Positions 38,284 through 38,430 of a stretch of DNA of 64,000 bases are shown in pieces. The stretch is from Gallionellaceae bacterium (GTDB taxonomy: Bacteria; Pseudomonadota; Gammaproteobacteria; Burkholderiales; Gallionellaceae), in contig SCUU01000125.1 of the NCBI GenBank assembly GCA_004297065.1, forward strand, positions 1-64,000, given 5' to 3'. The translations under genes were made by a program, and so were the position numbers. Positions within the stretch are counted from its first letter, which is position 1; each line of letters begins with the position of its first letter. The notes under the pieces are model-generated. The model was not told the DNA's origin, made no database searches, and saw only the letters and a program-made list of their open reading frames with translations.

Positions 38284-38430
38284 AAAAAAAATGCCCCTGA
38301 ACCAAAGGGGGAGGTCAGGGGCATAAGTCTTAACGATTAGGGGTTAAGACACCCGCTCAGGGAGGAGAAACGGGAAGCAGCTTTCGCTACTCGCATGCTC
38401 TGACTGGACTATGCGAAAATAGTTCAAACT
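38284..38430 (-). ncRNA. Candidate minus-strand small RNA with C-rich loops
   Basis: Between engB and hemB (both +), the minus strand has a strong intrinsic terminator: ATGCCCCTGA/TCAGGGGCAT (38315-38324/38291-38300) followed by eight T. Before it are an 8-bp hairpin GTCTTAAC/GTTAAGAC (38343-38350/38327-38334) and CCCG/CGGG around loop TTTCTCCTCCCTGAG. CTCCTCCC and ACCTCCCCC in the loops are complementary to Shine-Dalgarno sequences, as in several known riboregulators. The T run exists only on the minus strand, where no protein gene needs a terminator. The 5' end is not defined; no good promoter is claimed. Confidence 0.5.

Follow-up and report, generated by a model that had tools for sequence, protein, structure and literature searches.

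A small RNA gene in the engB-hemB gap

The window analyzed here is a 64,000-nt stretch of the genome of a Gallionellaceae bacterium, in which the gap between the plus-strand genes engB and hemB carries an element on the minus strand (Table 1). An Rfam search of the window returned a single small RNA (sRNA) match, anti-hemB (RF02837), which scored 58.1 bits (cut-off, 49.5) over the full model (1–81) at positions 38284–38376 of the minus strand. The RNA (38284–38393) is antisense and located just upstream of hemB (38456, plus), and its start was placed ~6 nt after the −10 element, probably near 38392. Since anti-hemB has already been reported in Burkholderia pseudomallei and Burkholderia cenocepacia, the feature, judged by its sequence, is a small regulatory RNA belonging to a family that is already catalogued. 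Khoo et al. listed the B. pseudomallei Anti-hemB as trans-acting (PMC3521395), and Sass et al. described the B. cenocepacia RNA as ncS04, a 105-nt transcript with its own mapped transcription start site and a Northern panel among the CU-rich sRNAs, whose level was unchanged under the conditions tried (PMC5688073). As a member of a known family, the element itself is ordinary, and its interest lies in a predicted sigma-E-type promoter and a proposed connection to ErsA.

In a sequence-only reading of the same DNA, 38284–38430 had been taken for a candidate sRNA of ~140 nt that acts in trans and has C-rich loops, with an Rfam search as one check. RF02837, which has experimentally detected Burkholderia members, does cover the element, and the very strong conservation of hairpins and loop agrees with that reading, but it overlooked both the known family and the sigma-E-type promoter. 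The RNA lies within the proposed interval, but the latter includes the promoter, and the RNA itself probably spans only ~109 nt from ~38392.

Our search of the same genome for RF02837 yielded this one copy; two weak matches (L002 and L003) without the CTCCTCCC hairpin were rejected. The mmgR/suhB family (RF00519) was also rejected as an identity, with 21.7 bits falling under its 41-bit cut-off. Covariance models detected no Spot 42 (RF00021; cut-off, 80 bits) in the window and no Pseudomon-1/ErsA (RF01719; cut-off, 50 bits) in the window or its genome.

Table 1. Features of the engB-hemB region (window coordinates)
Feature	Position	Strand	Basis or remark
engB (yihA/ysxC GTPase)	37647–38282	plus	TIGR03598 match; convergent with the sRNA
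Small RNA gene, anti-hemB family	38284–38393	minus	~109 nt; RF02837 match, B. cenocepacia ncS04 (105 nt), alignment
Intrinsic terminator	38284–38322 (hairpin 38293–38322, C-rich loop 38307–38314, T8 tail 38284–38291)	minus	Terminator scan, covariation
Hairpin 3	38327–38350	minus	Covariation
Hairpin 2 with invariant C-rich loop TCTCCTCCCTGA	38352–38374 (loop 38357–38368)	minus	Alignment, minimum-energy folds
Hairpin 1 (GTAGC GAAA GCTGC)	38377–38390	minus	Outside the Rfam model; covariation
−10 element GTCAGA	38399–38404	minus	15 nt after the −35 heptamer
−35 element TGAACTA, sigma-E/ECF type	38420–38426	minus	Conserved as [GT]GAACT[ACT] in Gallionellaceae copies; rpoE-trained matrix
hemB	38456–39463	plus	ORF, close HemB relatives; divergent from the sRNA

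Conserved structure and genomic setting

The region from 38270 to 38450 folded better than 200 of 200 dinucleotide shuffles (z = −4.8). An alignment of 59 diverse anti-hemB copies revealed changes on both sides in 23 of 27 base pairs, across all four helices; double-change cells numbered 215 versus 68.2 ± 10.3 in shuffles, and sliding the pairing partners abolished the signal. Both-side changes occurred in all six pairs of hairpin 1 (73% of cells paired) and in seven of the eight pairs of hairpin 3, and 97% of the stem cells of hairpin 2 were paired. Thus, where three hairpins had been noticed before, there are four helices (Table 1). The two C-rich loops named earlier proved exact, with CTCCTCCC inside 38357–38368 and CCTCCCCC at 38307–38314. 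The first of them (CCTCCCTGA) was invariant across the 59 copies, and its CCTCCCT core was unpaired in all 59 minimum-energy folds. Conservation among relatives, which the sequence-only reading had offered as a check, therefore extends to the covarying helices and the first loop but less so to the terminator loop, which was C-rich in 29 of the 59 copies.

The position of the element at the end of engB might also suggest a shared terminator or convergent hairpins only, with no regulatory RNA involved. We regard this explanation as highly implausible, given the published transcript of the Burkholderia homologue, the covariation and the family-wide invariant loop. Moreover, the terminator with eight T residues lies on the minus strand only, just as had been claimed, and our scan found no plus-strand terminator there.

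RF02837 exceeded its cut-off in 134 of 150 Gallionellaceae genomes. An Rfam scan of 40 hemB loci, which had been gathered independently by a HemB search, gave 30 matches to RF02837, always on the opposite strand and directly upstream of hemB, with engB convergent on the other side of the RNA wherever the EngB of the window found a relative. Loci from across the Betaproteobacteria likewise placed the RNA in the same gap and orientation. Upstream of hemB, no RF02837 match was found in the gammaproteobacterial loci examined, in Methylophilaceae or in some further lineages. In Nitrosospira briensis, two tandem RF02837 copies occupy the gap (L049:2197–2411), the engB-proximal one without a visible ECF promoter of its own.

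The linkage to hemB, conserved across Betaproteobacteria, would be expected of a cis-acting antisense regulator, in which the minus-strand RNA or its transcription disturbs a hemB leader beginning inside the sRNA gene or upstream of it. In addition, the gap holds no clear plus-strand sigma-70 promoter, so that transcription from engB may continue across the sRNA gene into hemB. However, ~60 nt separate the start of the RNA from the hemB start codon, which the RNA leaves uncovered, the distance from the loop to hemB varies (about 80–280 nt), and the conserved parts are the loop, the stems and the RNA's own promoter. Furthermore, the RNA adjoins engB without hemB in other orders (see below), and six paralogous copies (L149, L162, L164, L166, L172 and L173) contain the same loop with neither hemB nor engB nearby. 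Copies away from hemB retain the loop and mostly the promoter too (e.g., L149, L164, L172 and L173), which, as far as sequence can tell, argues for action in trans; the family name is therefore probably misleading. We consider a cis effect on hemB the less likely reading, and an improbable one. Three extra Gallionellaceae anti-hemB-like copies off hemB and engB (L162, L167 and L170) keep the loop and have sigma-70-like promoters.

A sigma-E-type promoter upstream of the RNA

The promoter of the window RNA, TGAACTA-N15-GTCAGA, fits the GGAACTT-N15/16-GTCTGA type and lies at the proper distance from the RNA. A strict promoter match was present in 59 of the 71 unique copies of the Gallionellaceae set, with GGAACTA (33) and TGAACTA (17) as the −35 forms and TCTGA (38) as the commonest −10. 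The spacer was fixed in 57 of these 59 strict copies, and the distance from the −10 element to the loop was 31–32 nt in 55. As a yardstick, we used rpoE genes (TIGR02939) from the family and order; of the 58 loci examined, 43, including that of the same genome, carried TGAACTA-N15/16-GTCNNN ~125 nt ahead of the gene. With the rpoE-trained matrix, the best site of the window (38426–38399) scored 18.4 versus 11.5 at the 99% shuffle level, a level passed by only 28 of the 71 copies since many have ATCTGA and not the GTC of rpoE promoters. The promoter-like element upstream of rpoE (L187, L201–L257) is itself conserved across the order. On its own, the sigma-E motif occurred at 10 sites in the genome versus 7 for a reversed-pattern control (6 versus 5 in a second count); it is informative only at a fixed distance from the RNA and not when searched alone genome-wide. 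Genes for Hfq and RpoE are present.

The promoter element is common to Nitrosomonadaceae, Rhodocyclales and some Oxalobacteraceae-like copies. Comamonadaceae copies have sigma-70-like promoters of the TTGAAA-N17-TTAAAT type and no sigma-E-type element, and neither kind was clear in Burkholderia and Cupriavidus. Compared with anti-hemB as known from ncS04 and the B. pseudomallei Anti-hemB, the window RNA scores above the family cut-off in sequence and structure and has the C-rich unpaired loop, and it shares with the Burkholderia members the gap, the strand relative to engB and hemB, and a similar length. It differs in having a fourth, covarying 5′ hairpin and the sigma-E-type promoter, the latter not being shown by Burkholderia and Comamonadaceae copies. 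We found no description of a sigma-E-type promoter upstream of anti-hemB in the literature searched.

Could the RNA instead be a constitutive, sigma-70-driven sRNA with a C-rich loop, the GAACT motif being coincidental or bound by another factor? The Comamonadaceae promoters are compatible with this, as are the TTGACA-like promoters of a few Gallionellaceae paralogues and the unregulated ncS04 of B. cenocepacia, though that lineage is one without the ECF-like promoter. Against it, the motif recurs with constant spacing and at a constant distance from the RNA across Gallionellaceae, Nitrosomonadaceae, Rhodocyclales and other orders. In a set of 106 engB loci (TIGR03598) picked regardless of the RNA, promoter and C-rich loop co-occurred at the expected distance in 21; the opposite strand yielded 1 such case, and shuffled sequences 0.02. 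Constitutive sigma-70 transcription thus seems unlikely to us, and we favor a sigma-E-type promoter.

Possible relation to ErsA and proposed role in envelope stress

A class-wide RF02837 search gave weaker matches in other gammaproteobacterial orders, which carry the same loop, C-rich hairpins and mostly the same promoter type. In about half of these loci (L009–L036), the RNA is convergent to engB and hemB is absent; in 13 of the 21 engB loci with promoter and loop, polA lies upstream on the sRNA strand. Some of these gammaproteobacterial engB loci exceeded the RF02837 cut-off, such as L382 (51.7 bits, with RF01719 reaching only 30.3 bits at the same place) and L364 (50.7 bits), and a further locus (L397) also weakly matches RF01719. 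The sole clear RF01719 locus found (L405) directly follows polA and has the promoter TGAACTT-N15-GTCATA; engB is on another contig in that genome, so linkage to it is outside view there. In a different genome of this class, a c-di-GMP-I riboswitch (L364:1124–1208; 77.9 bits) lies in the polA-engB region.

In Pseudomonas aeruginosa, ErsA lies between polA and engB (PMC8575079) and is strictly sigma-22-dependent (PMC7565897). It represses oprD and, assisted by Hfq, algC, and has been described as functionally orthologous to Spot 42 (PMC8395346). The window RNA shares its setting, being convergent to engB behind a sigma-E-type promoter, and ErsA resembles it in its three stem-loops and C-rich terminator loop. 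Unlike the window RNA, ErsA has no CTCCTCCC hairpin and for some of its targets relies on a U-rich linker, and where polA stands beside ErsA, hemB stands in Betaproteobacteria. The sX13 gene of Xanthomonas is always downstream of polA, and its C-rich loops target G-rich stretches close to start codons (PMC3771888); compared by description, it is similar in its stem-loops with C-rich loops but differs in being Hfq-independent. Spot 42 (spf) of Escherichia coli lies between polA and yihA/engB in the same convergent orientation but belongs to a separate Rfam family (RF00021), and neither a C-rich loop nor a GAACT promoter was found in its gap. Spot 42 is controlled by CRP. If sigma-E dependent, the window RNA would work in the manner of the enterobacterial MicA, RybB and MicL, as a non-coding branch of the response to envelope stress; a difference is that MicA and RybB pair via 5′ seed regions. 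In the literature searched, we found no paper linking anti-hemB with ErsA, Spot 42 or sX13, and none treating ErsA and sX13 together.

Promoter and gene neighborhood suggest that the window RNA is the betaproteobacterial counterpart of Pseudomonas ErsA. We lean slightly toward common descent, in which one ancestral sigma-E-driven sRNA beside engB would have given rise to RF02837, RF01719 and the unclassified engB-linked gammaproteobacterial RNAs with C-rich loops, the promoter being lost in Burkholderiaceae and Comamonadaceae.

For the window RNA, we infer sigma-E dependence, action in trans, translational repression and help from Hfq, and we judge it likely that the RNA works as follows. Upon envelope stress, transcription of the minus strand would start from the sigma-E (RpoE) type promoter and end at the intrinsic terminator, which adjoins the stop codon of engB. 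The single-stranded CUCCUCCC loop would then pair in trans with target mRNAs at their G-rich Shine-Dalgarno regions and reduce translation of these mRNAs, probably assisted by Hfq on the U8 tail. The covering of Shine-Dalgarno regions is modelled on the C-rich loops of sX13, which bind G-rich start-codon sites (PMC3771888), and is proposed by analogy. AGGGAGG-N3-10-ATG occurred at 32 sites versus 8 for the control; G-rich Shine-Dalgarno sites are common, and the count singles out no target. Pairing with the hemB Shine-Dalgarno site was dropped because the loop matches the leader of hemB (TTAGGAATCGCTATG) poorly.

The name of the anti-hemB family directs attention to hemB. The sigma-E-type promoter and the place shared with ErsA suggest a concrete role for the family, envelope-stress control through Shine-Dalgarno blocking. 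If true, this would add a non-coding arm to the betaproteobacterial sigma-E response, join two Rfam families, and mean that an sRNA gene stays beside engB while its other neighbor and its promoter change. Common descent, if true, would make the envelope-stress sRNA locus older than the split between Beta- and Gammaproteobacteria.

Elsewhere in the same genome (C278:2234–2262; L197/L263), a near-identical sigma-E-type promoter of the GGAACTA-N15-GTCTGA class precedes an ORF of 205 aa that resembles a cytochrome b561 and is a possible further member of the regulon.
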